DNA of 27,282 nt from a virus: positions 1-27,282 of IMG/VR virus record IMGVR_UViG_3300011116_000476; one strand, 5' to 3'. The position numbers were made by a program, and so were the translations under genes. The notes under the pieces were generated by a model, which worked only from the letters and a program-made list of their open reading frames with translations, was not told where the DNA came from and did not search any database. Below, piece by piece: positions 970 to 21,640 of the stretch (position 1 is its first letter; every line of letters begins with the position of its first letter).

Positions 970-2013
970 TCAGGAGTTTGCGTCGGCGATGTACAGACCC
1001 GACAGAGAAGTCGTCAGCACGGTTGCGCTGTTGTCGGTCACGCTGCCGCGCACGCGACGGTTCCACGGATCGTCCATGGTCTCCACGGTCATGTCCTCGT
1101 AGGCGAAGATAGTCGCCGTCGAGAATGACGGGCCTTCGTTGCCGACCAGACCGCCGGGACGGCTCACGAACACCATGCCGGGAGCAGACTCCGTGCCGTA
1201 GAGGAAGCCACGCGCATCGGTAGCACCCTTGCGACTAGTGACGCGAACGGTGTCATCGACCACCACGCCGCCCAGACCGAACAGCGTCTGCGGCAGACCG
1301 TAGGCGGCGAAGGTATCGTCGCCCTTCAAGAACGAGAATGCGGCAGGGTAGTTCTTCACATAGTCACGCACACCCGCGCTGGTCGCCATGATGCGAGCCG
1401 TGATCGGGTTGACCACCAGCAGAATGTCCTTCGGAGACACTGCGCCAACCGTGTTCTGCACGATTCGCTCAATGGCCGCACGGATGATCTTCTGCACACC
1501 ATCGGGATCGGTGGTGATGTCAACGCCAGTCACGAGATTGGTTGCGGCTGCGTAGTAGTTCTGACTGCCGCCGCTGGTGTTGTAGTTGCTGCTCTTGGTC
1601 AACTCCGTTGCCATACGCAGCGAACGGTGAGTCATCATTTTCGCCGCCGCGATGCGCGCATGGCTCGCCACGATATCCCACTGGGCCTGCCGAGCAGTCT
1701 CCTGCGGAATGTTGAACGAGGTCTGGAAACGCTGCGTGGTGAACTGGTTGAACTCAAAGTCCGAGTTGATGCCAGTCGGACGATCCTCACCCAGAGGCCA
1801 TTGGAGATCCTGCGTGGTGACCACGCGAGCCGTCTCCTGCTCGTCGATGCGGAGGTAGTAGCCGCTTTGCTGTTGCACGGGCACGATCTGCGCGTACTGC
1901 GTGATGGGGAAGCGGTTGACGCTGCGAGTGAACTCAATCTGGATCTGCCCGGTAGCGGCAGAGAAAGTGGGGACGAAGGTATTCAGTCCACCACCAACAC
2001 CGTATTCAGCCAT
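970..2013 (-). CDS. Major capsid protein (lambda gpE / Mu gpT-type)
   Basis: 347 aa, normal size for a HK97-fold coat protein. Supporting segments are QTSFNIPQETARQAQWDI (spine-like helix region), ARIAAAKMMTHRSLRMA, AIERIVQNTVGAVSPKDILL, VNPITARIMATSAGVRDYVK and a C-terminal YGTESAPGMVFVSRPGG...VETMDDPWNRRVRG region, the usual coat-protein order. It lies downstream of the protease-scaffold and a decoration-like gene. Residues 5-15 (GVGGGLNTFVP) are identical to a motif at the protease/scaffold junction. ATG 2013 has a strong AAAAAGGAG 9 bases upstream. A four-codon out-of-frame ORF (ATGACAAATGGCTGA) overlaps this start. No obvious cleavable N-terminal delta domain is present. Confidence 0.88.
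   Translation of the reverse strand: MAEYGVGGGLNTFVPTFSAATGQIQIEFTRSVNRFPITQYAQIVPVQQQSGYYLRIDEQETARVVTTQDLQWPLGEDRPTGINSDFEFNQFTTQRFQTSFNIPQETARQAQWDIVASHARIAAAKMMTHRSLRMATELTKSSNYNTSGGSQNYYAAATNLVTGVDITTDPDGVQKIIRAAIERIVQNTVGAVSPKDILLVVNPITARIMATSAGVRDYVKNYPAAFSFLKGDDTFAAYGLPQTLFGLGGVVVDDTVRVTSRKGATDARGFLYGTESAPGMVFVSRPGGLVGNEGPSFSTATIFAYEDMTVETMDDPWNRRVRGSVTDNSATVLTTSLSGLYIADANS
1969..2001 (-). repeat. GVGGGLNTFVP motif, copy in major capsid N-terminus
   Basis: Codes for capsid residues 5-15. All eleven residues match the copy at 3161-3193, but seven of the eleven codons differ at third positions. This shows conservation of the peptide rather than a recent DNA duplication. Confidence 0.85.
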
Positions 2014-2473: not shown

Positions 2474-3136
2474 TTAGGCCTTCTGGCCCGTGTACTTTGC
2501 GAACAGTTGCTTGAACTTGGCGAGGTCGCCAGCGGCCTCATGCACCGCACGAGCGGTCGCCACCTTGGGGTCGAGGGTTTCGCCACCCTCATCGGTCACG
2601 GTGTGCTGTGCCACGGTCGGCACATTCAGCGGCAGGCGAGCCATAGTGGCCTTCCAGAACGCGATCTTTGCGCCGGGGTTGGCAGCGTCCGACAGTTCCT
2701 CCACCATGCTGTTGCGGAACTTGGAGCAGCGGTAGCCGTCGCGGATCATGGCATCGACTTCCTTGCCGAACCGCTCCAACTTCAACTGCTTCTCCAGTTC
2801 CTGCACGCGTGCGAACAGAGCCTTCGTGGACTTGTCACCCTTGCTCATCTTGGCCTTTCCGCCGTAGGCGGCTTCCATTTCCTCTTCGTCTTCCTCTTCC
2901 TCGCCCTGATGCGAGCCAATATCGACATGCACGCCGTCAGCGAAGTTCTCCTCGTCCTCGTCGCCATCGACGGGGCCAGCGAACTCCATGCCGTCAGCAG
3001 CCATCGCCTCGGCATCGGCCTCCTCGGCCATCTTGTCCTCGTCCTCGTCGGCCTCGCACTCCATAGCGGCAGCGGCCTCAAGAGCCTTCTTGGCCTCCTC
3101 GTCGGCTTCCATCTTCTTCTTCATCTTGCTTGGCAT
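2474..3136 (-). CDS. Possible nested scaffold protein (internal start)
   Basis: In-frame ATG at 3136 (Met200 of the protease-scaffold) is preceded by AAAAGGAAGAAC, giving AGGA at a usable 6-base spacing. Translation would yield a 220-aa free scaffold beginning MPSKMKKKM, with the acidic region and C-terminal coiled-coil but no protease. Lambda Nu3 and similar scaffolds are known to be made this way from a start inside the protease gene. Whether this one is used is inference. Confidence 0.45.
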   Translation of the reverse strand: MPSKMKKKMEADEEAKKALEAAAAMECEADEDEDKMAEEADAEAMAADGMEFAGPVDGDEDEENFADGVHVDIGSHQGEEEEDEEEMEAAYGGKAKMSKGDKSTKALFARVQELEKQLKLERFGKEVDAMIRDGYRCSKFRNSMVEELSDAANPGAKIAFWKATMARLPLNVPTVAQHTVTDEGGETLDPKVATARAVHEAAGDLAKFKQLFAKYTGQKA

Positions 3137-3733
3137 GTTCTTCCTTTTGGTTCCTGCGGACGGGACGAAGGTGTTGAGTCCTCCGCCGACGCCAATTTCA
3201 TCAAACTTTTCCTTGGAGTCAATAGAAACGCGCACCACTCCAAGAGGACGCTCAAAGACCACCTTTGAGCCGTGCTTCGTGAATCGTGTGTCGGGCAGCG
3301 GCCTGCGCGGGGTATCACGCCCGAGCAACGCCACCTCCGACAAGTGATTGTCCTTCCAAATCTCTGCGCTGCGCCGGGGAAATGCGTTGGTCGCAAGCAG
3401 CGACTCAAACGCCTCCTTGGGCATCTCGACATCGCCGACCACATAGGCAACGCCGTTGCGCTCCTCGTAGCGAACGGAAGTGATGTCTCCGACCGCCTCG
3501 GGCCTTGTGGGCTTGCCGTCCTTCTCATGCTCAATGACTAGTTTCGGGCGACTGCCGCGCTGGATGAACTTCCCAGTACGCGAAACGATGTCGCGCACCT
3601 TGCGATTGTCGTAGGACTGCATGGCCTCGTCATCGTCCGAGTCGATGGACGGATCGAAGCCCATGAACAACTCAAGGTTCTTGATGCGAACCTTGCCTTC
3701 TTCGGTCTTCTCGACGGTGTGGGATGCGGGCAT
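2474..3733 (-). CDS. Prohead protease fused to acidic scaffold protein
   Basis: 419 aa in two parts. Residues 1 to about 175 look like a prohead serine protease: a strand with LVIEHEKDG supplies a candidate catalytic His, and FPRRSAEIW followed by LSEVALLGRDTPRRPLPDT supplies the candidate Ser and the usual downstream strand. Residues 181-191 carry GVGGGLNTFVP, shared with the capsid N-terminus. From Met200 the protein is scaffold-like: lysine-rich start, a very acidic stretch rich in E/D, then a coiled-coil (ALFARVQELEKQLKLER) and a helical C-terminus. Start chosen at ATG 3733, two bases after the upstream stop. A TTG at 3766 would also be in frame but is less likely. Scaffold may also be made alone from ATG 3136. 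Confidence 0.82.
   Translation of the reverse strand: MPASHTVEKTEEGKVRIKNLELFMGFDPSIDSDDDEAMQSYDNRKVRDIVSRTGKFIQRGSRPKLVIEHEKDGKPTRPEAVGDITSVRYEERNGVAYVVGDVEMPKEAFESLLATNAFPRRSAEIWKDNHLSEVALLGRDTPRRPLPDTRFTKHGSKVVFERPLGVVRVSIDSKEKFDEIGVGGGLNTFVPSAGTKRKNMPSKMKKKMEADEEAKKALEAAAAMECEADEDEDKMAEEADAEAMAADGMEFAGPVDGDEDEENFADGVHVDIGSHQGEEEEDEEEMEAAYGGKAKMSKGDKSTKALFARVQELEKQLKLERFGKEVDAMIRDGYRCSKFRNSMVEELSDAANPGAKIAFWKATMARLPLNVPTVAQHTVTDEGGETLDPKVATARAVHEAAGDLAKFKQLFAKYTGQKA
3161..3193 (-). repeat. GVGGGLNTFVP motif, copy at protease/scaffold junction
   Basis: Codes for residues 181-191 of the protease-scaffold protein, nine residues before the internal scaffold Met. Identical peptide to capsid residues 5-15, with synonymous codon differences. 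Confidence 0.85.
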
Positions 3734-3735
3734 GG

Positions 3736-4239
3736 TTAGATATTGCGCGCGATGCTCTTTGCCCAATTCACGATTTCACCAATCGAAGCGGTTGACACCC
3801 AGTCCCAATGGTCTGCGCTATCAAACTCTGGCTGCATGATGATCTTTGCATATTTGCCGAGTTCAGCAGATCGCCGCACACGCTCCTTAGCATTGTCGTA
3901 TCCACTCGCCCAAAACCGCTCCTTGCGGCCCTTGCCGAAGTAGAAGCGATCCTCGACCTTGAACCGCGCCTTCGCGCCGGGGCGGGAGAAGCCGCGCAGA
4001 AGATCAGAAACGGCATCTTTCTTCGTAGAGATTCCTTCCGCCTGTTGCTTCAGCATTTCGATGTTGCCCGTGGAAATCTGTCGCAATCCACGAAGATCAT
4101 CCCATCGGTAAAGAGAACCAAAGTTCGGGCCGATGTGGGGCATGGAATCAATCTTCCATTGATCTTTACCGATCTTGGCGGTGTATTCCTCAATCGGCTT
4201 GCCATGCTTTGTCGTCTTGGTCACTTTCCAGTTAGCCAT
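3736..4239 (-). CDS. Head-cluster protein with GxxxRF linkers (unknown function)
   Basis: 167 aa, family not recognised. Residues 1-80 form a module with WKVTKTTKHGKPIEEYTAKIGKD and a helical part. Residues 84-93 (FSRPGAKARF) and 101-109 (FGKGRKERF) are two GxxxRF linkers of the kind repeated in the next upstream protein. Residues 110-167 form a second module with a helix (NAKERVRRSAELGKY), a strand and a C-terminal helix. The start is ATG 4239 with a strong GGAGGTGAAGA before it, inside the upstream gene (8-base overlap). Placed between the gpF-like and protease genes, it may be an internal or accessory head protein; that is inference from position. Confidence 0.72.
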   Translation of the reverse strand: MANWKVTKTTKHGKPIEEYTAKIGKDQWKIDSMPHIGPNFGSLYRWDDLRGLRQISTGNIEMLKQQAEGISTKKDAVSDLLRGFSRPGAKARFKVEDRFYFGKGRKERFWASGYDNAKERVRRSAELGKYAKIIMQPEFDSADHWDWVSTASIGEIVNWAKSIARNI

Positions 4240-4978
4240 TCTTCACCTCCACATTCCAGTAGCGTCCGATGGACTGCACCGGAGCCGTTGCGCTGTAGCC
4301 GCTGCCCGCCACGCGGCGAGCGAAGTTCCCGGCCACATCCGCGTCCTCAAACGAAATGACCAGCGCACCGCCGCCAGTCTCCACCGCACGCCATCCGCCC
4401 TCGGGCATCTGCTTCTCGGAGAGCAACTTGCCAAGCATGGGCGAGGATGAGGCTTCGGCGAAGTTGCCACGGTTCAGGCTTGAAGCGTCAAACCGCTCGG
4501 GCTGGCCGAGGCGGGATGAACGGGTCTTTGATGCCAAGACAAAGAATGTTCGACTAGATGGCGATTGATATACGCCCGCAAGTCCATGCTTGTCGCTAAA
4601 CGCTTGCGCTTGCGTTGCGTTTGCAAACTGAACCGCATCGCCATCATCCCATGCAGCCACAACCGCTCCACTGTTCAGTTTCTTGCTGTTTCCGGAATAT
4701 GAACGCGCAAACCGCTCGGGCTGGCCGGGGCGGGAGAACCCCGTGTATGGCTTCGACAGATCAAGAATCTGCACGCGAAACGAATGCCATCCGTCCTTGG
4801 CCGCTCGTCGCTTGATTTCGTCCATCTGCGCGGGAGTCTTGGCCTTCGTTGAAAGAACTTCTTCGTGGAGTCGATCAGTTTCGCCCTTCGGAAGTCCCCA
4901 AAGCACATACTCCTTTTCAAACCGCTCGGGCTGGCCGCTCTTGCCGAAGTAGAACTTGTCCTCTGTCTTGTTGGTCAT
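4232..4978 (-). CDS. Beads-on-a-string protein with three GQPERF linkers (unknown function)
   Basis: 248 aa, family not recognised. The linker FGK/FSR/SSR-x-GQPERF occurs at residues 11-20, 81-90 and 154-163, 70 and 73 residues apart. Each is followed by a small alpha/beta module: module 1 has YVLWGLPKGETDRLHEEVL...GWHSFRVQILDL; module 2 has VVAAWDDGDAVQFANATQAQAFSD...RTFFVLA; module 3 has GGGALVISFEDADVAGNFARR...YWNVEV. Modules 2 and 3 share a strand-helix-strand-strand outline somewhat like SPOR domains, though similarity is weak. Starts at ATG 4978, overlapping the gpF-like stop by four bases (ATGA). The linkers are encoded by an exact 20-bp repeat. Confidence 0.75.
   Translation of the reverse strand: MTNKTEDKFYFGKSGQPERFEKEYVLWGLPKGETDRLHEEVLSTKAKTPAQMDEIKRRAAKDGWHSFRVQILDLSKPYTGFSRPGQPERFARSYSGNSKKLNSGAVVAAWDDGDAVQFANATQAQAFSDKHGLAGVYQSPSSRTFFVLASKTRSSRLGQPERFDASSLNRGNFAEASSSPMLGKLLSEKQMPEGGWRAVETGGGALVISFEDADVAGNFARRVAGSGYSATAPVQSIGRYWNVEVKNG
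4489..4508 (-). repeat. 20-bp GQPERF-coding repeat, copy 3 of gene
   Basis: Exact copy of CAAACCGCTCGGGCTGGCCG (plus strand), coding for GQPERF at residues 158-163 of the 248-aa protein. The other two copies are at 4708-4727 and 4918-4937. Confidence 0.9.
4708..4727 (-). repeat. 20-bp GQPERF-coding repeat, copy 2 of gene
   Basis: Exact copy of the same 20-mer, coding for residues 85-90. The bases just beyond it (GCCGGGGCGGGAGAA, plus strand) also recur in the neighbouring 167-aa gene near 3975-3990, linking the two genes. Confidence 0.9.
4918..4937 (-). repeat. 20-bp GQPERF-coding repeat, copy 1 of gene
   Basis: Exact copy of the same 20-mer, coding for residues 15-20. The adjacent CTTGCCGAAGTAGAA (coding FYFGK) is also found at about 3930-3944 in the 167-aa gene. 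Confidence 0.9.
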
Positions 4979-6027
4979 CGTTTGAATCCGGGATCGGGGT
5001 AGTCGCCTCTGTCGATGATGCGTTGCCGTGCTGCGTTATACCGCGCAAGCGCAGCACGATCTAGAGATTCGTCCTTGCGGATGAAGCCCATACGCTTGGC
5101 CTCGTCAAAGGTCACAGGCTCTAGCGAGCCTCGGCAGTTGAAGCCATTGGGCGGCACAAGCCCCTGCGAGCGCATATCGGCAGCCGTGGCGATGTACCCA
5201 TCCATCTGCCAATGTGCGCCGGGGTTCTTGCTCTTGCCCTTGGGTCGATACACGCCGCCGGGTGCGCCGCGTGTCCGGCTGTCGTGAATCTCGACCAGTC
5301 GCACGAGCGGTGCCCACCGCGCAACCGCAGGACTGTCCATCGTTTCTACTGTCGCTTCGTTGTACGCCGTGGCCGTGTTCGTGCGGTAGACAGTCTCCAG
5401 CCGCGCCGATGTCATTCCGATGATGCCTTCGACCTGCGCCCGCCGAATAAAGGAAGATAAACTTCCAGTTTTTAGCCCCTTGGGAATCGACTGGTTCACC
5501 ATCGCCTGCGCGATCAGGTCGCGGATGCGGCGTGCCTGCGCCTCGGTCGCCCCCTTGACGCGGAACGAGCCAGAGAGCGCGTCCTGCAACGCCTCCAGAC
5601 GCTTGGACAGGTCGCGGATGGCTTCCCGGCTCTCGGCCTTGGCGATGCGCTCGGCCAGCCGTCGCATCTTGGCGCGGATGCGCCGCACCTCCAACCACGA
5701 GCGCGGGATGCGGTTCCTGAAAGCCAGCACGGCCTTCCAGTATGCCCCGGGGCCAAATCCGCCCGGATCAGCCGCAAAGGTGTCAGGACGCTCCTCCGGC
5801 CATTCCTCGGCCTCCCAATCGGCTCCCTGCTCCTTGGTGGCCGCGTGCGCCTGCGCCGAGCCTGCAAGGGCCGTCAGGGTCATCACCTGCCCTAGAACCT
5901 CGCCGTATCGCTCCCACGCTTCGGCGGCATCCTCCGGCTCGCCACGCACTTGCGCGGCTAGGGCAGCGAGATACCACCGCCGGACATCGGCAAGTCCGCG
6001 CCTGTAGATGCGCTCAAACTCGGTCAC
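4975..6027 (-). CDS. Head morphogenesis protein, Mu gpF / SPP1 gp7-like
   Basis: 350 aa. Residues 1-190 are helical and charged. The C-terminal part carries the Mu gpF hallmark: YRTNTATAYNEA, VRLVEIHDSRTR, PGAHWQMDGYIATAADM and PPNGFNCRGSLEPVT, the conserved H/D, G-x-H/W and NCRGS motifs. The family acts with the portal in early head assembly, and some members enter the head as minor proteins. Starts at GTG 6027, overlapping the portal stop (GTGA), and ends overlapping the next start (ATGA), so it sits in a tightly coupled portal-gpF-accessory block. Confidence 0.88.
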   Translation of the reverse strand: MTEFERIYRRGLADVRRWYLAALAAQVRGEPEDAAEAWERYGEVLGQVMTLTALAGSAQAHAATKEQGADWEAEEWPEERPDTFAADPGGFGPGAYWKAVLAFRNRIPRSWLEVRRIRAKMRRLAERIAKAESREAIRDLSKRLEALQDALSGSFRVKGATEAQARRIRDLIAQAMVNQSIPKGLKTGSLSSFIRRAQVEGIIGMTSARLETVYRTNTATAYNEATVETMDSPAVARWAPLVRLVEIHDSRTRGAPGGVYRPKGKSKNPGAHWQMDGYIATAADMRSQGLVPPNGFNCRGSLEPVTFDEAKRMGFIRKDESLDRAALARYNAARQRIIDRGDYPDPGFKR

Positions 6028-8723
6028 TTGCGACGGCTAGCCACGGTCAAGATTGCGCCAACGGCCTCAAGGGTTGCTTCAGCCTCATCAAGATCATTGA
6101 TGGCATTTGACATGGCGGAACTGTGCGCGGAATACCGCTTGAACATCGCGGCAATCTTGGCTCGCATTTTCTGCTCGGCCATGTCAAACATCATGCGTCG
6201 CTTGGCGTTCTCTGCCTTGAATGGAGGCAGTCCAAGTTGCGCGGCTTGCTTTGGCATGAAGTCCTTGCCCCACTTCTTCCGATAGGCAAGGATTTGTTCG
6301 CGCAGGCTGTTGGAGGATTCATTTACCTTCTGCTTCAATGCAGCGATTCGTTCTTCGGATGCCTTTGCCTTTGCCTCGGCTTCTCGCAGGTACGATTCCG
6401 TTCTCTCTTGTGCAGATGCGTCAAGTGCCTTTCGACCCTTGGCGATGATGTCGGCGGTGATTTCTTTCGCGCGTTCGCTCATGCGCTTTTGCACTTCCGC
6501 ATCGACCATCTTTTTCCATTGATCTGCGGGAATAGGCTTTTGGGCCTGCTCCCACTTGTCATTGATTTCAGCGATCTTGGCGCGAATGCGCTTCACCTGT
6601 CGCTCGGACTTGCGAACCTCGTCCTTTACTTCCTCGTCCGTGCCTTCGATACGGTCGCGTCGGCGTTCTTTCTTTGGCGCGGCCCCTTTGCGGCCCTCGC
6701 CCCCTTTTGGCTGCTCGCCACCGCCTCCGCCACCCTCGGCGCACTTGTTCCCCGGCTGGAAGCCGCCCTCGCCGATGCCGCAGTTCGCGCCCTCAAAGCG
6801 ATCCTTGCTGCCGCGCTTGGAGTGCAGTTCACCTCGCCGCTCCATGCTCTTGGCAATCGCCACGGCTTGATCCTGCGGATATCCCTCGCGGCGCAGCAGC
6901 GCGATCTTGTCGCCCACAGGGTCGGACTTCGCGGCCTGCTCGTCCTTGCCCTCGGCGCGGTCGAGTTCGGCCACCTTCTTCTTCGCCCATGACTTGCCCG
7001 CATCGCCGCCCCAGAGCAGCCACGCGATGTAGCCAGCCGAATCCTCGCCCCAACCCTCGCCCTGCTTGTCCACCTCGTGCCGTGCGAAATACGAGTGCAT
7101 TCTCCTTACGGTAGATGGCGAGAGCGTCTTGCGGTTCGACAGGTCGCGTGCGCGAGCAACGCCCACTTCCGTGCCGCCGCGACCATGCTTGCGGCGCAGT
7201 TCAAGCCCGCGCTCTGCTGCTTCGGCTGCGCCCTTCGGCGGGGTCAGATCGACATCGGACAGCGCGAATCTGTCCTTCTGAAACGGCTGGCTTTCGTCCG
7301 GCGTTTCTGCATCTCCCGGCTCGTCGCCCATTGGTCGGACATCCAGCGGAGGCATGCCGCCGCCTCCCATGCCGCCCTCGGACGGAGCCTGCAACACCAT
7401 CTCATCATCCTCCGGCTCCGCAAGGCCAAGCACCTTTCGCGCCTCGCGCTCGCTCACGCGACCACCCAACTTCGTGAAGGCTTCGATGGCCTTCATGTAC
7501 TCATCCGGGTTGGGCTTGCTCACGCTGAACGAGAACGACGGCGGGATGGCATCGTCTCCGAAGTTCATGCGGAACAACGGGGTGACGATTTCGCGCGTGA
7601 TGGTTTCCGCCAGCGCGTTTGCGATGTAGGTGACTTGGCGATTGAGCGTCTGCGCGTGCTGGTCGCCGATACTTGAGCCAAGGCCGCTCGTCACCGCCTG
7701 CGAAGTGCCCGTCTGGCCAAGGATGACTTCCTTGATGTTCTCGGTGAGGTACTCAACCATCTTGGCGAACGCTTCCGCGTTGCCGCCGTTCGGCTCCTTG
7801 ATGTCAATGCCGAAGCCCGCATCGCTGCCGTCCGCGTTCTTGGGAATCAGCACCGAGACATCGCCGAGCAAGTTCTGCATGGCCGATTCCATGTCAGCCT
7901 TTGCGGCCTCGTTGCCCACGGGGTAATTGCCCACGCGGATGCCCATGCTGTACCGCTCAATGTAGGTCGCCCAGTTCTGTAGCGCGGCCTGCTTCAGCGA
8001 CCAGTAGTACCAAACCAAATCGCGCATGCCGCGACCGAGGTAGGCGTTCTCCGCCTCGTAGGGATCATCGAAGTCCACGCCCTGCGGCTGGTAGGTGTGC
8101 AGCGCGATGGTCGCTCGCTGCTGATCGTCCAGCGGCAGCACTCGGCTATCCCAACCGATGACCGTGCCATTGATCTTGTCCGTGTCGGGGGCCGCGCCGC
8201 CGATGGTCTGTGTGTAGTAGCGCGGGCCGACCTTCAGGCCCAACTGCCCAAGTTCGGTCATGGTCAGGCTGTCGCCGTGAATGGGCAGCCAGTCGCGGAT
8301 GTAGATCGTTTCGCCCTGCTTGCCGAACACCATGTTGACCGCCGAACGCCCGTACCAGAGCGCGTCGAGCAGGTGACGCATCATGTCGGTAAATCGTGGC
8401 GTGTTCTTCAGCAGTTTCTCCACGAACGCGGCCTGCTCCGTGGCCTGCTCATCGCCCTGCATATCTGCGGGAACCTGAACCGCCCACTCCGCACAGGCGA
8501 CCGAAAGTTGCAGCATGACAAGCGGCCCCATGATGTCGGGGTCATAGCGCATCTGCCGCTGAAGGTTTCGATCCTTACGGAACGCAAGCGAGCCTTGGCG
8601 GAGGATCTTGTTGACGGAGAGGTAGTAACTCCGCTGCATCTCGACCGGGGTGACGAGTGCTTGGAACACGGGAGCCACTCGGATCTGGTCGCCGCCTTGG
8701 GTCTGGTTTGCGTCGCTTGGCAT
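6024..8723 (-). CDS. Portal protein (Mu gp29 / DUF935-type) with about 400-residue C-terminal extension
   Basis: 899 aa, roughly twice a usual portal. Residues 1 to about 480 match the DUF935-type portal, the dodecameric ring for DNA passage: LLDALWYGRSAVNMVF, GRGMRDLVWYYWSLKQAALQNWATYIERYSMG and VILGQTGTSQAVTSGLGSS. Residues about 500-590 form a separate phage-borne domain (HGRGGTEVGVARARDLSN, RHEVDKQGEGWG, IAWLLWGGDAGKSW). Residues 638-643 are GSKDRF, fitting the GxxxRF linker family of the downstream genes. Residues 647-664 hold an NCG-x(6)-F-x-PGN-x-CAEG motif, followed by a Gly-rich hinge and a basic helical/coiled-coil tail. ATG 8723 (TAATG with the terminase stop) is preferred over GTG 8750. 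Confidence 0.88.
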   Translation of the reverse strand: MPSDANQTQGGDQIRVAPVFQALVTPVEMQRSYYLSVNKILRQGSLAFRKDRNLQRQMRYDPDIMGPLVMLQLSVACAEWAVQVPADMQGDEQATEQAAFVEKLLKNTPRFTDMMRHLLDALWYGRSAVNMVFGKQGETIYIRDWLPIHGDSLTMTELGQLGLKVGPRYYTQTIGGAAPDTDKINGTVIGWDSRVLPLDDQQRATIALHTYQPQGVDFDDPYEAENAYLGRGMRDLVWYYWSLKQAALQNWATYIERYSMGIRVGNYPVGNEAAKADMESAMQNLLGDVSVLIPKNADGSDAGFGIDIKEPNGGNAEAFAKMVEYLTENIKEVILGQTGTSQAVTSGLGSSIGDQHAQTLNRQVTYIANALAETITREIVTPLFRMNFGDDAIPPSFSFSVSKPNPDEYMKAIEAFTKLGGRVSEREARKVLGLAEPEDDEMVLQAPSEGGMGGGGMPPLDVRPMGDEPGDAETPDESQPFQKDRFALSDVDLTPPKGAAEAAERGLELRRKHGRGGTEVGVARARDLSNRKTLSPSTVRRMHSYFARHEVDKQGEGWGEDSAGYIAWLLWGGDAGKSWAKKKVAELDRAEGKDEQAAKSDPVGDKIALLRREGYPQDQAVAIAKSMERRGELHSKRGSKDRFEGANCGIGEGGFQPGNKCAEGGGGGGEQPKGGEGRKGAAPKKERRRDRIEGTDEEVKDEVRKSERQVKRIRAKIAEINDKWEQAQKPIPADQWKKMVDAEVQKRMSERAKEITADIIAKGRKALDASAQERTESYLREAEAKAKASEERIAALKQKVNESSNSLREQILAYRKKWGKDFMPKQAAQLGLPPFKAENAKRRMMFDMAEQKMRAKIAAMFKRYSAHSSAMSNAINDLDEAEATLEAVGAILTVASRRK
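6795..6812 (-). repeat. GxxxRF motif copy in portal extension (GSKDRF)
   Basis: Codes for portal residues 638-643, preceded by LHSKR, so the local pattern S-K-R-G-x-K-x-R-F resembles FSRPGAKARF and FSRPGQPERF in the two downstream proteins. It differs from them at DNA level. Confidence 0.6.
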
Positions 8724-10159
8724 TAGGGTTGGGTTCCGTATAGCCGCCACAGTTGCGGCTTTGTGCTTTTGATTGTGGCTGGCTTTGCCCGTGGATCATA
8801 TCGACGGGTTCGGGCATGCTCTAGCAAATCCACCACGGCATCCACGGTGTCATCATGCTCACCCGCAGGGAATCCGACGAGTTCATCCACGATTGGCTGT
8901 TGGGACGGTTCGACCCGGCCATCCGCTCGACACCGAAGCCGGAGCCGATGCTGCTCCACCATCGCCTGCGCCTCGCTAGCCCGCGTGATCTTGTCCTTCG
9001 TGCGTGCGACTCTCCGCACGGGTATGCGGGTGGACTGTTGGAGTTGCTGGCACAGGCCAGCCTGCGGGCCGTTGCCCTCGGCGATGATCTGCGCGACACC
9101 TAGACGGTCGCAGGCATCGACGGCGCGGCGCAGGAACTCCGGGAAGGTCGCCTGCATGCGGAGGCATTCCAACACCCAAACATTTGCCTGCGAGTCCATA
9201 AGCGCGATGACGCACACGCTAAAGTCGCCGCTGCCCGTGGCGTTAGCGGTGAATGCCCAGTCAATCGCCGCAACCACCGTGCCATTGGCCGTCGCCGCAT
9301 GGTCAGGGTCGCCCGTGTAGTACCCCTGCTCCAGCCACTCGGGCCGGAAGATTAGGCTTTCGTCCGACACGGGGATGAGTTCGTAGGCGCGTGCGTAACC
9401 AAGCGGCCCCATCTCGCGCCGCTGCGCTTGCAGGATTTCCGGCGTGAACACTTCGCCCCAAGGACTCTCAAAGCCTCGGCACGGTCGCCAGAACAGCGTG
9501 CCGTCCTGCTCGCCGACGCGCTTCCATTCGGCTGTCAGATCGTCCGAGTGGTACGGCGTGAACAGCCTCCAAGTCCGTGGCCGCCCTGCGCTGAAGTCAC
9601 GCATGGGAAGCCAGTTGTTGCGCCACGCCTCTTTCACCTTATCGCGCTCTGCCGGGATGAGGACGGAGTTGCGAAGGTCGCACACATCGTCGCCGATCAG
9701 CAGATCCACGCGACCGCCTGCGCGACCGAAGATGTTGGCAGCCTGCATTGTCGGGTCGCGGTGCATGCTCTCCGACTTGACGATGATTTCGCTTGAGCCA
9801 TCGTCATCTGGCTTGGGCTTCACGATCTGAATCTCGGGGAATACTTCGCGGTAGACATCCGAACGCATGATCTGCACCACCATGCGGATCTGCTCTTGCG
9901 CCTTCACCACGGTCTGTCCGACATGCTTGATGCGGATGTGCGGGTTCCGGCCAATCTCCCACGCTTCGCGGATGCCGATCTGCACAGACTTTCCGTGACC
10001 ACGCGGAACGCCAATGGCCGCGTCTCCGTGCTTTGATAGGTGCGCTTGGATGTCGCTGTGCAGCCCGGACTGGTTGAACCCGAGCAACTCGGCGAACACA
10101 TCCGGGCACTCGCGTGCCGCCGCTATGACTGCGCTAGTTTCTGGGTCGATCACTTGCAC
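8723..10159 (-). CDS. Terminase large subunit (ATPase/nuclease)
   Basis: 478 aa, the packaging motor that cuts concatemers and pumps DNA into the prohead. Walker A is GVPRGHGKS at residues 50-58, and the Walker B region is VDLLIGDDV with D-D in place of the commoner D-E. Nuclease-type residues are AIDWAF followed by GSGDFSV (first Asp), IIAEGNG (Glu/strand) and HDDTVDA at 435-441 (last acidic residues). The start is GTG 10159, with a possible alternative GTG two codons later; no ATG lies near the N-terminus. It overlaps the small-subunit candidate by 26 bases and the portal ATG by one. Confidence 0.92.
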   Translation of the reverse strand: MQVIDPETSAVIAAARECPDVFAELLGFNQSGLHSDIQAHLSKHGDAAIGVPRGHGKSVQIGIREAWEIGRNPHIRIKHVGQTVVKAQEQIRMVVQIMRSDVYREVFPEIQIVKPKPDDDGSSEIIVKSESMHRDPTMQAANIFGRAGGRVDLLIGDDVCDLRNSVLIPAERDKVKEAWRNNWLPMRDFSAGRPRTWRLFTPYHSDDLTAEWKRVGEQDGTLFWRPCRGFESPWGEVFTPEILQAQRREMGPLGYARAYELIPVSDESLIFRPEWLEQGYYTGDPDHAATANGTVVAAIDWAFTANATGSGDFSVCVIALMDSQANVWVLECLRMQATFPEFLRRAVDACDRLGVAQIIAEGNGPQAGLCQQLQQSTRIPVRRVARTKDKITRASEAQAMVEQHRLRLRCRADGRVEPSQQPIVDELVGFPAGEHDDTVDAVVDLLEHARTRRYDPRAKPATIKSTKPQLWRLYGTQP

Positions 10160-11117: not shown

Positions 11118-12464
11118 TTATGAAATCAAGGCGGAAACGATTCGTGACGCGATTGCCTGATATCCCAACGCGGTCAAATGGCTGTTGCCGCCACTGTCGT
11201 ACCAAGTCGTGCCAGATCCTCCACCCGTGTTGATGTCGTTATAACTGACGAATGATGTCAGATCGACAATCGTGCATGTTCCTCCATTGCCAAGCGCGAT
11301 GGCAGAAGCACGCTCCGTGGTCAAAGTGTCGCTGCTAGCGGTTTGGTGACTCACCCATCCAAGGCAGGCAAGATCAGCACTCGGATATCCCAAGGTGGCC
11401 CATTCATTGCGGCAAGTGGTGAAGAAACTTGCTGCACTTGTTCCCCACGGATTCGTACCCGCATTGATTCCACCCTGAATCGCCACGATGACGCGCCCGC
11501 TTCCGCCGCAAGAAATCTGCCTCAATCGCGCCTCTCGCAGATACTGGCGCACAATCGTATTGCCGGACGAAATGTTGCTCGCAACCGTATCCATTGTCGC
11601 ACCACCATGATGCGAAATGGATGTGACAGCATATCCCTTTGTTCCGGTGCGCGATACGGACTGCAATGCAATCGCCATCGGCCCGGTCAGGCGGGAAGTG
11701 CTTACGCTGTTGCTTGCGTAATAAAAACCATGCTGCTGTCCTGTTCGCGCACTGCTCGCTGATATTGAAAGAGTCGAAGTCGTCCACGCATATGACGCTT
11801 GCGCGCAAGAGATGGATTGAGTTGCATTTACAGTAAATGGGGCAACATCTAGTCGAGATGAAAGGCGCAGCGTTCCCATGCTTGGCCCAAGACCATGCAC
11901 AACACGGTATTGAATCGAATCACCAATCCACGGGATTCTATTGCTGCTTGCGTATGCAAACATTCCCCCAATGGTGTCACTCCAATCAGTCGCTCCAGCC
12001 CACCATCCGTAGTCAAATGGGCAAGTATTTGGCTGTAGGCTTCCCGCTCCTCGCGTCATTGCGGTAGTCAAATCAGACGGCCCCGATGCCAATCCGCTCA
12101 CAAGCGTGTTGCCGAGTGCTGGCGTTCCCGTGGCGTTGACGACAGTTCCCGTTGTTCCGATTCTGCTAAAAACTCCTTCTTCTAAATAGACTCCGTAGTA
12201 CAAAGCGGTGTCCCATGAAATGCAAGGAACAATCGGCGTTCCGTATTCAAGAGCAGTCGTGTTTGTCTGCAACGCCCAGTTGATTCCATCTACCCAACCC
12301 CAGCCACCGAAGTTGGTGTTACTGTCGCCCGCAATCAAGATGTCAACCGAATCGCGTCGGGCTACGACATCTTGCAGCATGGTTCTGACTTGCCCTGAAC
12401 CATACACACCAGCGGCTGGCGGAATCACTTGATCGTTGAGCCTTCGTAGTGGTCGAGGTCGCAT
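11118..12464 (-). CDS. Virion-associated SGNH/GDSL hydrolase (probable receptor or tail-fibre esterase)
   Basis: 448 aa. SGNH blocks: block I ILIAGDSNTNFGG with nucleophile Ser48; block III IQGGINAG with the G-x-N motif near residue 331; block V near residue 423-434 (YDSGGNSHLTALGY) with His429. In block V the Asp lies six residues before the His instead of the usual three. Such enzymes remove O-acetyl groups from surface or cell-wall polysaccharides. The remainder is Ser/Thr/Gly-rich and beta-like, as in virion adhesins. The ATG overlaps the upstream stop (TAATG), pairing it with the 180-aa protein. Local composition is more AT-rich than flanking genes (31/60 G+C at 11941-12000). Confidence 0.75.
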   Translation of the reverse strand: MRPRPLRRLNDQVIPPAAGVYGSGQVRTMLQDVVARRDSVDILIAGDSNTNFGGWGWVDGINWALQTNTTALEYGTPIVPCISWDTALYYGVYLEEGVFSRIGTTGTVVNATGTPALGNTLVSGLASGPSDLTTAMTRGAGSLQPNTCPFDYGWWAGATDWSDTIGGMFAYASSNRIPWIGDSIQYRVVHGLGPSMGTLRLSSRLDVAPFTVNATQSISCAQASYAWTTSTLSISASSARTGQQHGFYYASNSVSTSRLTGPMAIALQSVSRTGTKGYAVTSISHHGGATMDTVASNISSGNTIVRQYLREARLRQISCGGSGRVIVAIQGGINAGTNPWGTSAASFFTTCRNEWATLGYPSADLACLGWVSHQTASSDTLTTERASAIALGNGGTCTIVDLTSFVSYNDINTGGGSGTTWYDSGGNSHLTALGYQAIASRIVSALIS

Positions 12465-13006
12465 TAGATCGTCGCCCAGAATGCGCCCATCTTGGGCGTG
12501 GTTCCCGTGGCCTTGAACTGGAGCGTGATCAACTGCGAGCCAATTGCATCTACAACAAGGCTGGCGGGCTGCACATTGGTCGTGGCAGCCGTCGCAGGGC
12601 TGTAGGCGTTGACGGTCGGCACGCCGCTGCCAATGGTCGCGCTGCTGAAGAAGTAGGTGGTTACAGAGTCAATGGACAGGCTTGCAACCGTGCCGCTCGT
12701 GTAGCCGAGGGTCACATCTGCAAGCACCGTCGGAACATACACCTTTGTGCCAGCCGTCTGGAGATACGCATTCCAACCAACCACGCGCATGCCAACCGAG
12801 GTCAAATCATTACGGCTTGCGATAGGAGTCAAGCGCAGCAGGCTCGGGTAGTTCGTGCCGATGTCGTACAGCAGCGCGGACTGGCTCGTGGTGCTTGGCT
12901 TGGTCGCCGTGGGGCTGGCGGCATCGTAAGCCTGTGCGGAGGTCAGGGTGATGAGGCCAGTAGTTTTGAATGACGGCTGTGCGGTGGAGATGATTGAGAC
13001 GGCCAT
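12464..13006 (-). CDS. Putative virion protein, beta-rich (unknown family)
   Basis: 180 aa, not recognised. The sequence is Ser/Thr/Ala-rich with many short strands (MRVVGWNAYLQTAGTKVYVP, LITLQFKATGTTP) and almost no charged residues, typical of phage structural proteins. It starts at ATG 13006 (TAATG with the upstream stop, AAGGAA just before) and is coupled to the SGNH protein that follows. They may assemble together as fibre, tip or capsid decoration; this is inference from pairing and composition. Confidence 0.55.
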   Translation of the reverse strand: MAVSIISTAQPSFKTTGLITLTSAQAYDAASPTATKPSTTSQSALLYDIGTNYPSLLRLTPIASRNDLTSVGMRVVGWNAYLQTAGTKVYVPTVLADVTLGYTSGTVASLSIDSVTTYFFSSATIGSGVPTVNAYSPATAATTNVQPASLVVDAIGSQLITLQFKATGTTPKMGAFWATI

Positions 13007-13290
13007 TACGGCTTCCTTTCAAGTCGGTCGATTCGGGACTGGATGCTGTCGATGCGGGCTGCGTATTCGCGGTCTGTTGCGGAGAGTGTCGAAACGGTGC
13101 GGGCAAGGTCGGCGGTGATGGCTGCAAGTTCCTTCATGCGCTCGGCCTGATTGTCGATGGCCGCATCGCGGCGACCAACCATCAAGAACGCGCCCGCGAT
13201 GCTGCCGAGCAGCACAACGGTCTGCACGCCTTGCATCAAGGTCTGAAGGGACACTTGCTTGCCGATCTTCACCTCGGTCTGTTCACTCAT
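13006..13290 (-). CDS. Single-TM, coiled-coil membrane protein
   Basis: 94 aa: a short polar N-terminus, one TM at about residues 20-39 (QGVQTVVLLGSIAGAFLMVG), then a long coiled coil (ERMKELAAITADLARTVSTL...RIDSIQSRIDRLERKP). This topology suits an inner-membrane spanin or another envelope protein. ATG 13290 overlaps the upstream stop (ATGA), so it is preferred over in-frame ATG 13323 or longer forms that run into the neighbour. Confidence 0.65.
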   Translation of the reverse strand: MSEQTEVKIGKQVSLQTLMQGVQTVVLLGSIAGAFLMVGRRDAAIDNQAERMKELAAITADLARTVSTLSATDREYAARIDSIQSRIDRLERKP

Positions 13291-13598
13291 GGCTTTTGGG
13301 ATACTAGCGGCTTCCGTCGCCATCCTAAAGAGAAAAGCGCACGCCCTAGAACGGCTGCCGCGTCGGTCGTGGCCTCCTCGGAAAGTGACGGCAGGGCAGC
13401 ATGCAGGAGTTCGTGACAGACGATTTCGGCAAGACGCTGCTGCGACAGGTCGCGGCGCACGCGGATGGTCGGGTGCGGCCCCGGAGGATGGTCGCAGTCG
13501 CCGAAGCGGTCGCGTGGCAGTTCGCTGGCCTTGACCAGTCGCACGCGCCACTTGCGCCCGTTGATCTTCAGTCGCGCCTCATTGTGCATCATGGACAT
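13287..13598 (-). CDS. Small HELLH metalloprotease-like protein
   Basis: About 103 aa. Residues 62-66 are HELLH in the context EIVCHELLHAALPSLSEEAT, a zincin HExxH motif with a possible third ligand (Glu74 or Glu75) nearby. The upstream half has strands such as TIRVRRDLS. Small phage proteins of this look are known but their substrate is not. Start is uncertain: in-frame ATGs at 13598, 13592 and 13589 all lie within the end of the upstream gene and none has a clear SD. Ends overlapping the next start (ATGA). Confidence 0.6.
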   Translation of the reverse strand: MSMMHNEARLKINGRKWRVRLVKASELPRDRFGDCDHPPGPHPTIRVRRDLSQQRLAEIVCHELLHAALPSLSEEATTDAAAVLGRALFSLGWRRKPLVSQKP

Positions 13599-17505: not shown

Positions 17506-17954
17506 CCGTGTGCCTCCTCGATGGCTGCGTAGACCATGCCGACCGTGTACGCGCTCCACTCCTCCACCTTGGGAGACAGTGGCGTGCCGTCGAGTGCGCC
17601 GACCTTCCTGCACTTGGCGACTGCTGCTGCGATGATTTCTCGCGGCGCGAGGAGTAAAGCGTTTCTGGCCTGCTTGCGCTCGCGCTCAATCTCGTCCGGA
17701 TTGATGCCGTCCTTCCACGCCTGCGCGTGAACCTTGGCGCGCTTGTTGTTGCGCCGGATCTCCCCGGCCAATTCTTCCGGCTTGACGCTAGAGCGCGAGA
17801 GGGTCAGGCGCATCGTCTTGCAGGCTTGCACGATGTCCTCATGCGTGAACTCGTCCAGCACCTTGGCGGCCTCGGCGTGCTTCTTGCTGTCCGGCTTCGC
17901 CCATGTGCTGCCTCCGAAGTGCTCAAGGATCACGGCTGCGGTTTCTGTTCTCAT
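17502..17954 (-). CDS. Hypothetical helical protein next to the replication initiator
   Basis: 150 aa: MRTETAAVILEHFGGSTWAK, then EFTHEDIVQACKTMRLTLSR, a basic EIRRNNKRAKVHAQAWKDG and a helical C-terminus. Translation follows GGAGACACC before ATG 17954 and overlaps the DUF1376 stop (ATGA). By position directly after an initiator it could be a helicase loader or other replication partner, but no motif proves this (no Walker A). Confidence 0.55.
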   Translation of the reverse strand: MRTETAAVILEHFGGSTWAKPDSKKHAEAAKVLDEFTHEDIVQACKTMRLTLSRSSVKPEELAGEIRRNNKRAKVHAQAWKDGINPDEIERERKQARNALLLAPREIIAAAVAKCRKVGALDGTPLSPKVEEWSAYTVGMVYAAIEEAHG

Positions 17955-18748
17955 GGTGTCTCCACGGGATCAAGGTAGCGGCCTTGGCCAAGCCAAGTGG
18001 CCGGGTGCGGGATGAACTTCGGGTCGGACAGTTTGTGCTGCTTGGCGAGCGCGTCGATCCGCTCCTCCATCCAGATCAGGGCATCGGTCGGCTCGTCATG
18101 CTCAAAGTCATCCATGACCTCGCGCACGGCCTTGTCCAGCAGCGTCATGGCCTTCTTCCGACCCACCTTGCGCGGGAACCGTTGCCAGAGCGCGTCTAGC
18201 GCGGCCTGCGGGATCGTGGCTCGGCGGTTCGGCCTCGGATCATTTACGGATGAAACAGGCTCAATGGCGGAGCCGTTGAGCGTATGTGTTTCTAATGACT
18301 GTGACGGTGAAGGTGATAGTGACAGTGACAGTGACAGTGAATGGTTGACCTCGTGTTGAGGTTCTGTTGGCTCTTCTGTTGCAACAGGTGTTGAACGGCT
18401 GTTGGCCTGCTGTTGCCTCGCTGCTGCCGATGCCCGTCCCGCTGCTGCCTTGTCACGCAGGAACTTGTCGGCTTTAGCCCGTTCAGATTCCTGCCGCTGG
18501 TTTCGCCTGCGACCATCCAACCCAACCGGAAACTTGGGTTCAAGGATTGCCCATGCTGCACGAATGTCTGGATCAAGTCGGAACACGCGCTCCGTATCTG
18601 CTGGCAAGCCATCGCCCTGCCATGCAGCCCACAGCAGAATCAGGTACGCGCCGCGCTCGGCGGCAGACCATCCAAGTGTCGATGCCATAAAGTCGTCGCC
18701 CCAGAACTGCATCCACGGTGCGCGCCCAAGTGCTTCTTTGCTGCTCAT
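17951..18748 (-). CDS. DUF1376-type phage replication initiator
   Basis: 265 aa. Residues about 10-95 fit DUF1376: PWMQFWGDDFMASTLGWSAA, ERGAYLILLWAAWQGDGLPA, then ILEPKF and RRNQRQESER. A variable linker (about 110-175) contains a Ser-Leu repeat at 137-146 coded by a hexamer array. The C-terminal part (LWQRFPRKVGRKKAMTLLDK ... HPATWLGQGRYLD) matches the conserved tail of phage replication proteins. By analogy with lambda O, the repeated linker DNA may be the origin. ATG 18748 overlaps the HNH stop (ATGA). Confidence 0.78.
   Translation of the reverse strand: MSSKEALGRAPWMQFWGDDFMASTLGWSAAERGAYLILLWAAWQGDGLPADTERVFRLDPDIRAAWAILEPKFPVGLDGRRRNQRQESERAKADKFLRDKAAAGRASAAARQQQANSRSTPVATEEPTEPQHEVNHSLSLSLSLSPSPSQSLETHTLNGSAIEPVSSVNDPRPNRRATIPQAALDALWQRFPRKVGRKKAMTLLDKAVREVMDDFEHDEPTDALIWMEERIDALAKQHKLSDPKFIPHPATWLGQGRYLDPVETP
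18301..18340 (-). repeat. Hexamer tandem repeat inside initiator gene (candidate origin iterons)
   Basis: On the plus strand the array reads as about 6.7 units of GTGAYR: GTGACG, GTGAAG, GTGATA, three exact GTGACA, then GTGA. It codes for the Ser-Leu stretch. The array lies in the variable linker of the initiator, the same relative place as the lambda O iterons. Origin function is inference; slippage-prone simple sequence is the alternative. Confidence 0.55.
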
Positions 18749-19299
18749 CGCTGGCCCGACCTTTCTCGGATCATGCTCCAACAAGTTCCGCAGAAATATC
18801 GAAACTCCTTGTTTTCATCACGGATGCACTTGAGAAGAGTGATATCTGTGGCTTGCATGATTTCGGGATACGAAAGACGATCAAGAAACTTCGTGATTCC
18901 TGCTATCCATGTTCTCGGCACGGTGTCCCGATTGGGATGAAGTTTCCAAATGATCTTCCATACCTGTTCATCAATTCGCGCTCGACGCTCCTCCATGATC
19001 TTTGCGTATTCGGCAAGTTGCGCTTCCGCTTCCTTGATCCGAGCAGCGCGTTCCCTCATCGGTTCAGGAATCGCCTTCAGAGACTTTGCCGCCTTACCTC
19101 GATTGCATTCAAAGCATGCGGTAGCCAGATTGTCGGTGTCATTCTCGCCACCTTCAGAAACGGGAATGATGTGATCGACTTCAAGCACAACTTCGGGCGT
19201 TTTGCGTCCGCAGTATTGACACGCGAACCCGTCACGCTTGAACACATCGAAACGCCGCCTCTTTGATATTGGCGTGCGCCGATTCTTGGATACACTCAC
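18745..19299 (-). CDS. HNH endonuclease
   Basis: 184 aa from GTG 19299. HNH core: C27-QY-C30, EVDH43IIPVSEGG, an NDTDN segment, and C62-FE-C65-N, so the zinc-binding CxxC pairs and catalytic His are present. A helical C-terminal half follows and ends with YFCGTCW, another CxxC. GTG 19299 is chosen because AGGAGG lies exactly six bases upstream; ATG 19332 in frame would add 11 basic residues without an SD. It could be homing, packaging-related or a freestanding nuclease. Low G+C (25/60 at 18781-18840) suggests it was acquired. Confidence 0.8.
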   Translation of the reverse strand: MSVSKNRRTPISKRRRFDVFKRDGFACQYCGRKTPEVVLEVDHIIPVSEGGENDTDNLATACFECNRGKAAKSLKAIPEPMRERAARIKEAEAQLAEYAKIMEERRARIDEQVWKIIWKLHPNRDTVPRTWIAGITKFLDRLSYPEIMQATDITLLKCIRDENKEFRYFCGTCWSMIRERSGQR

Positions 19300-19305
19300 G
19301 CGAAG

Positions 19306-19311
19306 CCTCCT
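19306..19311 (-). promoter_or_regulatory. Strong ribosome binding site deciding the HNH start
   Basis: AGGAGG on the minus strand, six bases before GTG 19299. It is a full SD match and argues for the GTG start over ATG 19332. Confidence 0.7.
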
Positions 19312-19342
19312 GCGCCCTATTCGGCGCGGCATGGGTTAGAAG

Positions 19343-19379: not shown

Positions 19380-19706
19380 TCATCCCTGATTCGGTGCGGA
19401 TTGCAAGGCTTCCGTGCTGCGCTCAATCAGCCCGCGCACCTCGTCCAGCCACGCCTGTCGCTCCTCCTGCGAGCGGTAGAACCCAGCCGCCGCCTGCTGC
19501 ATCACCAGCGCGGTCGTGGCCGTGCAGCCGATGAGTTTAGCGATGCCGCTAGGCGTGCCGTTGGTCAGGCTGTGCAGCGCGTCGTATGCGAGCCTGCGAG
19601 CCGCAACTGCATCCTTGCCGATGCCGCTGCCGGGTTTGGGAAACGCGAATCCTCGGCGTGACAGGGCTGCTTCAACTGCGGGAATGACGATGGTTGCTGC
19701 GTACAT
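19380..19706 (-). CDS. Small protein with DnaA domain IV-like helical region
   Basis: 108 aa from ATG 19706, which overlaps the Gp157-like stop (TGATG). Longer upstream frames run into the neighbour. Residues 34-76 (AVAARRLAYDALHSLTNGTP, SGIAKLIGCTATTALVMQQA) resemble in spacing the DNA-binding domain of DnaA (aRxxaxYL...s..eIgxxfgxrdhtTVxxA), but the basic signature residues are mostly missing. It may bind DNA near the origin; the similarity is weak. Confidence 0.5.
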   Translation of the reverse strand: MYAATIVIPAVEAALSRRGFAFPKPGSGIGKDAVAARRLAYDALHSLTNGTPSGIAKLIGCTATTALVMQQAAAGFYRSQEERQAWLDEVRGLIERSTEALQSAPNQG

Positions 19707-20707: not shown

Positions 20708-21640
20708 TCAGAACGGGATCTCGTCGGCCTCGACCGCGACGGGCGCGGCCTGCTGCTCGTGGGATTCTAACACGGTGCGGATGCCGTAAAGCGTCCAGCC
20801 GTACTGGCCCTCTTGCACGAAGCCCGAAACGGTCTGCCCGCCGAGCGCATCCTGCGCCGCCTGCATCACCTTGTCATCGAAGCAACTAGCCCATTGTTCC
20901 GCGCCGCCGACTTCCAGCAGGATCGGGTAGCGCATGCTGCCCTTTGCCGTTGGCTTGCCCTGTCCGACGCGCTTGATGGTCAGACCGTCATGCCACACAC
21001 AGTCCTTGGCGGGCCGGGAAGCCAGCACCTCGCCAAACGCGCTAGGAGCCGCTGTGTTGAGTTCCTTGGCCTTGGGTGGGGTCGGGGCCGCCTTCGGGGC
21101 CGGAGCGGCCTGTGGGGCATCCTGCTGCGCCGGACGGGCCGGAGCGTTTCCGCTACCGCTTGCAGCAGGTGTAGCGGGATTGCTCCGCGCCGGGGCCGGG
21201 GCCGGAGCCTTGCGCGGCTCGTAGGTGCGGTCGTCACGCCGATCCATCTCGCTCTCGTCCTCGCGGGGAACCAACAGCAGGTCGCGGAGGTAGTAGCCCA
21301 GCGAACTGGTCAACGCTCCGGCCATCGCCTTGTCAATGGGCCTGCCCTTCTCTGGAACGCAGATCCACGCGATTTCGTCGCTCACGGATTCCCCGGTGGG
21401 GCCGTGCGACAGGACAAATGTGGAGTTCACGATGCCGCCCTCGGGCGTGCCGTCGAACTTCCACCCGGCTCGTCGGACGGTCAAGCCCGCGCCGTGCAGC
21501 GCGTCCCGGCATGCGCCGATCATGGCTTCCGCGCTCACATACGAGTAGTGATGGAATGAGTTCTTCGCGTCCTTGCCCACCGAGGGAAGGGCTTTCTGTG
21601 CGGCCAGCAACGCGCTGGCGAGTGTCTCGGTCTTGCTCAT
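20708..21640 (-). CDS. erf: ERF-family single-strand annealing protein with SSB-like acidic tail
   Basis: 310 aa. Residues 1 to about 130 are ERF-like: SALLAAQKALPSVGKDAKNS, FHHYSYVSAEAMIGACRDAL, and KAMAGALTSSLGYYLRDLLL followed by VPREDESE. ERF proteins anneal ssDNA during phage recombination and circularisation. A Pro/Ala linker (about 144-192) follows. Residues about 195-300 form a beta-rich domain (LTIKRVGQGKPTAKGSMRYP, GFVQEGQYGWTLYGIRTVLE) that could be OB-like. The last residues VEADEIPF imitate the acidic DDDIPF tip of SSB, which recruits partner proteins. ATG 21640, GAGACACCC upstream. Confidence 0.8.
   Translation of the reverse strand: MSKTETLASALLAAQKALPSVGKDAKNSFHHYSYVSAEAMIGACRDALHGAGLTVRRAGWKFDGTPEGGIVNSTFVLSHGPTGESVSDEIAWICVPEKGRPIDKAMAGALTSSLGYYLRDLLLVPREDESEMDRRDDRTYEPRKAPAPAPARSNPATPAASGSGNAPARPAQQDAPQAAPAPKAAPTPPKAKELNTAAPSAFGEVLASRPAKDCVWHDGLTIKRVGQGKPTAKGSMRYPILLEVGGAEQWASCFDDKVMQAAQDALGGQTVSGFVQEGQYGWTLYGIRTVLESHEQQAAPVAVEADEIPF

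Follow-up and report, generated by a model that had tools for sequence, protein, structure and literature searches.

Two genes of the head cluster in a 27.3-kb virus record that has no assigned host, here analyzed over its whole length (the window), encode arrays of small domains (beads) separated by a short linker. Across related phages these arrays are modular, their beads are exchanged at boundaries set by the linker and turn over fast, the linker is conserved as DNA, and the arrays keep a fixed location in the head-gene cluster. As to their role, we lean slightly toward the view that the beads are virion-carried, injected cargo that would be re-assorted at the linker by homologous recombination.

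Genes A and B Encode Strings of Small Domains

The head cluster of the window comprises a Mu-like portal, a MuF protein, decoration and gp36-like proteins, a capsid protein and a protease/scaffold-like protein. Genes A and B, neither of which has a Pfam match, sit between MuF and the protease and are organized as follows.

4975..6027, minus strand: MuF-like minor head protein (PF04233), upstream boundary of the slot
4232..4978, minus strand: gene A, 248 aa, an N-terminal tag and three beads (open reading frame and AF2 model)
4940..4963, minus strand: N-terminal tag EDKFYFGK of gene A, common to gene B and most gene A relatives
4919-4936, minus strand: GQPERF linker 1 of gene A, an identical DNA repeat
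4736..4918, minus strand: bead m24 (EKEYVLWGLPKGETDRLHE...) of gene A, a mobile bead
4709-4735, minus strand: linker 2 of gene A, SRPGQPERF (GQPERF at 4709-4726)
4517..4708, minus strand: bead m51 (ARSYSGNSKKLNSGAVVAAW...) of gene A, from sequence comparison
4490-4516, minus strand: linker 3 of gene A, SRLGQPERF (GQPERF at 4490-4507)
4235..4489, minus strand: bead m1 (DASS...WNVEVKNG), the fixed final bead of lineage-1 gene A
3736..4239, minus strand: gene B, 167 aa, second bead array (open reading frame)
3988..4239, minus strand: bead m3 (MANWKVTKTTKHGKPIEEY...), N-terminal in gene B, from sequence comparison
3961-3987, minus strand: linker SRPGAKARF of gene B (GAKARF at 3961-3978)
3913..3960, minus strand: conserved segment KVEDRFYFGKGRKERF of gene B, internal tag and linker
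3913-3930, minus strand: GRKERF of gene B
3739..3912, minus strand: bead m7 (WASGYDNAKERVRRS...), C-terminal in gene B
2474..3766, minus strand: protease/scaffold-like head protein that bounds the slot downstream (assigned by gene order and sequence, with no profile match)

The initial annotation had drawn attention to six copies of G-x-(P/K)-x-R-F in three head genes. A six-frame scan of the window with G.[PK].RF returned exactly six matches, all in three head genes and all six where they had been placed, against a chance expectation of 0.1 and a maximum of 2 in 500 trials with shuffled window proteins. The reported spacings of 70 and 73 residues in the 248-aa protein are correct (GQPERF starts at residues 15, 85 and 158), and F-(S/G)-(R/K), said to precede most copies, precedes 4 of the 6. 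The three GQPERF copies are an identical repeat at the DNA level too (20-28 nt), and the relatives define a fuller linker, SRPG-x-(P/K)-x-x-(F/M).

The AF2 model of the gene A product (25 sequences, mean pLDDT 55) contains compact alpha/beta units at residues ~22-73, 105-148 and 171-247, and the linker-containing segments between them have pLDDT values of 25-37. A first alignment, in which a homologue of m51 was misaligned onto m1, had been dropped and remade without that homologue. The model agrees with the beads-on-a-string design proposed for this protein, namely three compact alpha/beta modules and low-confidence linkers, and it argues against modules that fold as one continuous domain, flexibility of the linkers not being thereby proved.

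Bead Arrays of Relatives Are Located among Head Genes

A gene A scan of viral contigs yielded 49 loci. The relatives of gene A begin with EDKFYFGK, carry one to several beads split by SRPGQPERF and end in the fixed bead m1, and those of gene B have beads split by SRPGAKDMM/AKATF-type linkers around KVEDRFYFGKGRKERF. Splitting these genes gave 261 segments in 75 clusters, counts that are approximate because the regex-based split puts the wrong labels on genes A and B of L051/L075 and merges a short bead with another in cluster m2; it was here that the different small modules expected between a common linker were seen. One locus, L047, belongs to a second lineage, with a portal core 41% and a MuF protein about 30-31% identical to those of the window, and its arrays contain homologues of m24, m51, m19 and m38 with RPGAKAKF-type linkers. 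A search for two linker cores ~200-240 nt apart added ~50 further contigs with in-frame arrays of up to 1219 aa.

The resulting catalogue holds 130 arrays on ~100 contigs, some of which may be pieces of one phage, and 488 beads in 178 families, 96 of them singletons; the number of families reached no plateau with added sampling. The beads have a median length of ~70 aa and number from 1 to 11 per array. N-terminal tags of the EDKFYFGK or RLGFAA type are present in 71 of the 130 arrays, and individual beads have no tag of their own. Wherever the flanking genes are readable, the arrays lie only between terminase and portal, between MuF and protease (slot 2), or at both places.

All arrays are on metagenomic contigs, and no isolate with such an array was found in the phage collection. 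A query of isolated phages with the second half of the beads gave no array homologue, and a capsid protein search gave no match. In bacterial genomes the linker pattern matched 90 times, always singly and never twice in the same stretch; judging from these counts, we treated them as chance.

Some further features of the arrays were observed. L033, L075 and L084 encode an m1 relative in a gene to itself, which has an FYFG-like start. In L047 a similar ...RLGFAA... start peptide is found in three genes (7714-8109, 8118-9446 and 12268-13587), and its sequence is reminiscent of a common targeting peptide. The mini-bead of cluster m2, EACWxGYEPVGTKxKDGxTVPNCVP, which is not in the window, occupies ~20 lineage-1 positions, occurs also in lineage-2 arrays, and matches parts of several PHROGs of unknown function.

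Beads Are Exchanged at the Linkers

The breakpoints of exchange were located by local protein alignments, defined independently of the linker-based split: 63% of their internal ends lie ≤3 residues from a linker, versus 20% for random positions. Among the recurrent bead clusters, 44 of 48 are found in at least two neighbor contexts and 10 of 48 in both genes. The turnover is fast, since the mean Jaccard index between bead sets is 0.09 for phages with backbones 93-99% identical, and 8 of 14 such pairs have no bead in common. L051 and L075 are 98.4% identical on the left and 99.9% on the right of a single swapped bead, whose breakpoints are the start tag and a linker. Beads of the window recur in other settings as well: m24 is present in L011, in gene B of L045 and in lineage-2 arrays, its protein being 85% identical to the lineage-2 copy as compared with 41% for the portal core and 30% for MuF; m51 has a single other copy among those found, in the lineage-2 phage L047/L181; and m3 is an internal bead of the 1219-aa array of L256.

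L033 and L034 share 7.7 kb at 99.96% identity and then diverge exactly at a linker, a junction that is suspect and possibly an assembly chimera. The apparent shuffling as a whole might on this basis be ascribed to metagenomic mis-assembly at the repeated 27-nt linker, an explanation that we regard as very improbable. Several arrays are found in identical form in samples that were assembled separately (L002/L004, L015/L016, L036/L037 and L042/L044), so assembly chimerism is unlikely in general; moreover, copies of one bead in different contexts have themselves diverged, the pairwise differences affect most beads and not one junction, and linkers of other protein sequence give the same pattern.

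The Linker Is Conserved at the DNA Level

Among 48 copies of SRPGQPERF, TCC encodes the serine in 92%, CCC the first proline in 100% and CGG the second arginine in 92%, as against 19%, 27% and 24%, respectively, in other genes. The bias persists when one linker per phage is taken (34 phages), with P values from 1e-5 to 1e-20 for every tested codon, calculated with background frequencies from the same contigs and with the relatedness of the phages incompletely removed. The linker core TCCCGCCCCGGC occurs 117 times inside array genes and not once in 411 kb of flanking DNA (both strands), which, together with the confinement of the arrays to the head cluster, bears out a restriction of the motif to head genes. 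The linkers of gene B and of lineage 2 have the same DNA core followed by different residues, the linker protein being QPERF, AKDMM/AKATF or AKAKF according to gene and lineage.

These data lend no support to the suggestion, made in the initial annotation, of a docking or packaging tag in the linker. Because its DNA is fixed at synonymous sites and lies at the exchange breakpoints while its protein sequence varies, the linker appears, from the sequence comparisons, to be better explained as an exchange junction for recombination. A further role that would be compatible with a cargo function is that the linkers are also cleavage sites of the head protease, the beads being freed at maturation and the DNA conservation being secondary. 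We consider this less likely than not. Slot 2 adjoins the protease gene, the linkers are predicted by AF2 to be unstructured, and the internal proteins of T4 are processed at maturation (PMC3012670); however, the residues after SRPG vary strongly by gene and lineage while the DNA core is fixed, and no linker-like sequence was recognized at an expected cleavage site in the capsid or the protease.

The Portal Carries Array Beads and a Swappable C-terminal Domain

The portal extension has the following elements.

6024..8750, minus strand: portal, Mu gp29-like core (residues ~64-443; PF06074, E 5.4e-50) and long bead-like C-terminal extension
6942..7265, minus strand: portal bead P1 (phrog_2859, PHROG match), with KDRF before it
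6822..6911, minus strand: portal bead P2 (phrog_2423, KIALLRREGYPQDQAVAIAKSMERRGELH, PHROG match)
6795-6812, minus strand: GSKDRF, the motif copy of the portal, followed by the GANCG hub and the swappable C-terminal domain

The link between portal and arrays that had been drawn from the shared motif is real, albeit not through the six-letter motif alone. The GSKDRF of the portal lies outside 3736-4978 and has neither the SRPG core nor its DNA, and its status as a true linker copy is therefore not established. The link also consists in beads and in domain swapping. P1 is a bead in the arrays of other phages (14 of 36 array proteins match phrog_2859), and in isolated phages it is found near the N-terminus of head-cluster proteins annotated as capsid or coil-containing. 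P2, matched by 21 of 36 array proteins (phrog_2423), is the C-terminal bead of many slot-2 arrays of other lineages and is absent from some lineage-1 portals. The domain that follows GSKDRF-EGANCG is helical in the window, another one in L036, and missing in L011, L018, L022 and L043. The portal tails of L009 (6090-6794) and L012 (4725-5429) have a domain with an R-S-E-like pattern, and in a Foldseek search with its model the top 37 structural matches were ADP-ribosyltransferases (best E 0.012); a probable ADP-ribosyltransferase is thus predicted at the end of the portal extension of these two phages, on the basis of a motif together with a model of low confidence (pLDDT 61). L012 has in addition, at ~6943-8091, a separate 383-aa open reading frame with the portal-extension hub GANCGxxxGGFQPGNTC, a lysine-rich stretch and a helical C-terminus.

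The fusion of P1 and P2 to the portal in lineage 1, and the fact that one array slot adjoins MuF, would also be expected if the bead strings were borne by the portal or MuF complex and had a part in the ejection of DNA, perhaps that of host-specific channel or membrane factors, and were not anti-defense effectors. Such turnover on near-identical backbones is, however, more typical of arms-race effectors, and the stand-alone homologues of beads described below lie in accessory regions and not in ejection modules, which makes a role in ejection unlikely.

Properties of the Beads

Searches for bead functions in Pfam, PHROGs and PDB returned almost nothing. No convincing domain emerged when 73 lineage-1 bead representatives and 36 arrays were compared with Pfam, and a Foldseek search with the low-confidence model of the 248-aa protein gave nothing below E 0.16. 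Two beads have stand-alone relatives. Bead m24 has one of 68 aa in Rhodobacter phage RcPutin, and bead m16, absent from the window, matches phrog_9437 as well as stand-alone small genes in Rhizobium and Agrobacterium phages. Plasmid matches were obtained in 865 records, of which 738 are typed as conjugative, a fraction for which there is no baseline for comparison; the count is for all query beads, and the best matches listed are all to m16. Three plasmid neighborhoods had no single common context. The beads are mostly basic, with a median pI of 9.3 versus 6.6 for the other proteins of the window, a property that might suit co-packaging with DNA.

The basic pI of the beads and the position of the arrays among head genes also fit a structural role. 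The beads would then be internal modules of variable kind that serve as scaffold, cement or spacers and so tune the assembly of the capsid or the packing of DNA, with basic beads neutralizing DNA charge; bead identity would be of little weight, and the beads would drift and be swapped neutrally through the repeated linker. In isolated phages P1 lies close to the N-terminus of proteins that resemble capsid or scaffold, which points in the same direction. Nevertheless, the beads are heterogeneous in structure and conserved within families (m24, 85% across lineages), which indicates sequences under selection; two of them have their stand-alone homologues in accessory regions of phages and plasmids; and the arrays vary from 1 to 11 beads with no matching change in the flanking head genes. 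A structural role seems rather doubtful to us.

Proposed Mechanism

We infer a scheme in which recombinase, packaging, injection and anti-host function are all putative. Genes A and B would be cassette arrays, each encoding a string of small independent domains, and the linker codons would provide a short, near-identical, in-frame stretch of DNA where phages swap, gain and lose beads by homologous recombination. A candidate recombinase is encoded by the window itself.

20708..21640, minus strand: ERF-family single-strand annealing protein (PF04404, E 8.7e-08), candidate recombinase for linker exchange

Other replication-side genes encode an HNH endonuclease (18745-19332), a Sipho_Gp157 protein (19706-20221) and a DUF1376 protein (17951-18784), all on the minus strand.

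Because the arrays sit only in the head-gene cluster, their products most likely reach the procapsid in company with portal, MuF and scaffold, and for this entry the FYFGK or RLGFAA tags, P1, P2 and m1 are possible anchors. The beads might then be delivered with the DNA at infection, in the manner of the T4 internal proteins although concatenated, as a fast re-assorted host-takeover or anti-defense set.

Comparison with Known Systems

The nearest functional analogue of the bead arrays would be the internal proteins of T4. IPI, IPII and IPIII (Ip1-3) are small, mutually non-homologous and highly diverse head proteins (mature IPI* has 76 residues); those known are injected, and their targets are different type IV restriction enzymes, which they inhibit (PMC3012670, PMC12373910). 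The passengers are diverse and non-homologous here too (178 families among 488 beads). Whereas the T4 proteins are encoded by separate genes, each with an N-terminal capsid targeting sequence, the beads are concatenated in one open reading frame with a common DNA linker; and whereas the T4 proteins are packaged and injected, packaging and injection of the array products are putative and suggested by the head-cluster location. The polyvalent proteins of phages and conjugative elements combine several domains and are believed to accompany the DNA on delivery, and some of them are fused to MuF or portal domains (PMC5512222). They have two or more recognizable effector domains, typically enzymatic and often including a metallopeptidase, in contrast to the ~70-aa beads, which are without known domains and are exchanged at a uniform linker.

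MuF polymorphic toxins have a head-protein part that is conserved and a C-terminal domain that varies. The C-terminal swap in the portal (helical, probable ADP-ribosyltransferase, other or none) resembles them, but the arrays have many beads each, and no toxin domain was recognized in them, genes A and B included. In the T-even gp38 adhesin, shuffling takes place at conserved glycine-rich in-frame motifs between variable segments. Unlike gp38, which is one tail-fiber adhesin, the arrays consist of independent domains, variable in number, that move between head-cluster genes and lineages. Integrons are open-ended arrays of exchangeable small gene cassettes with a repeated DNA junction, in which each cassette is a whole gene and recombination involves a tyrosine integrase and attC sites. 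The beads, in contrast, are in-frame segments within a single protein; nothing resembling an attC site was noticed, and no integrase was found among the window proteins scanned, which were part of the set.

Domain mosaicism of phage proteins has been described as recent fragment exchange among phages, with emphasis, in the available part of the account, on tail and other classes of proteins (PMC10684548). As in mosaicism by homologous recombination, the breakpoints of the arrays lie in conserved DNA between variable segments; the same part of that account mentions no linker or portal and no tandem arrays with a dedicated DNA linker. None of the named systems tested fits the arrays, and under phage protein mosaicism they would count as a variant of it. 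No description of such a bead-array architecture was found in the open-access literature, older and subscription literature being beyond the scope of the search. Whether these genes represent an undescribed kind of locus, with open-ended in-frame arrays of effector domains in head genes, swapped at dedicated linker DNA and injected as concatemers, is in our judgment evenly balanced.

If the beads are injected, each array would be a ready list of small phage proteins selected for action on hosts in the first minutes of infection, and the 178 families from ~100 contigs, still growing in number, are nearly all unannotated. The linker core is directly searchable, so that this inventory could be mined at scale and the beads tested singly against defense systems, and the arrays would illustrate the re-assortment of phage domains at a DNA site that lies within coding sequence. 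Even without a cargo role, it is an unusual mode of evolution for a head gene to turn over in units bounded by a linker.

A Peptide Common to the Protease/Scaffold-like Protein and the Major Capsid Protein

Two head proteins encoded on the minus strand have the peptide GVGGGLNTFVP in common: the protease/scaffold-like protein contains it (window 3161-3193), and the major capsid protein has it at its N-terminus (window 1969-2001). This pairing is retained in most of the relatives that have both genes, and the peptide is perhaps an assembly or cleavage signal.
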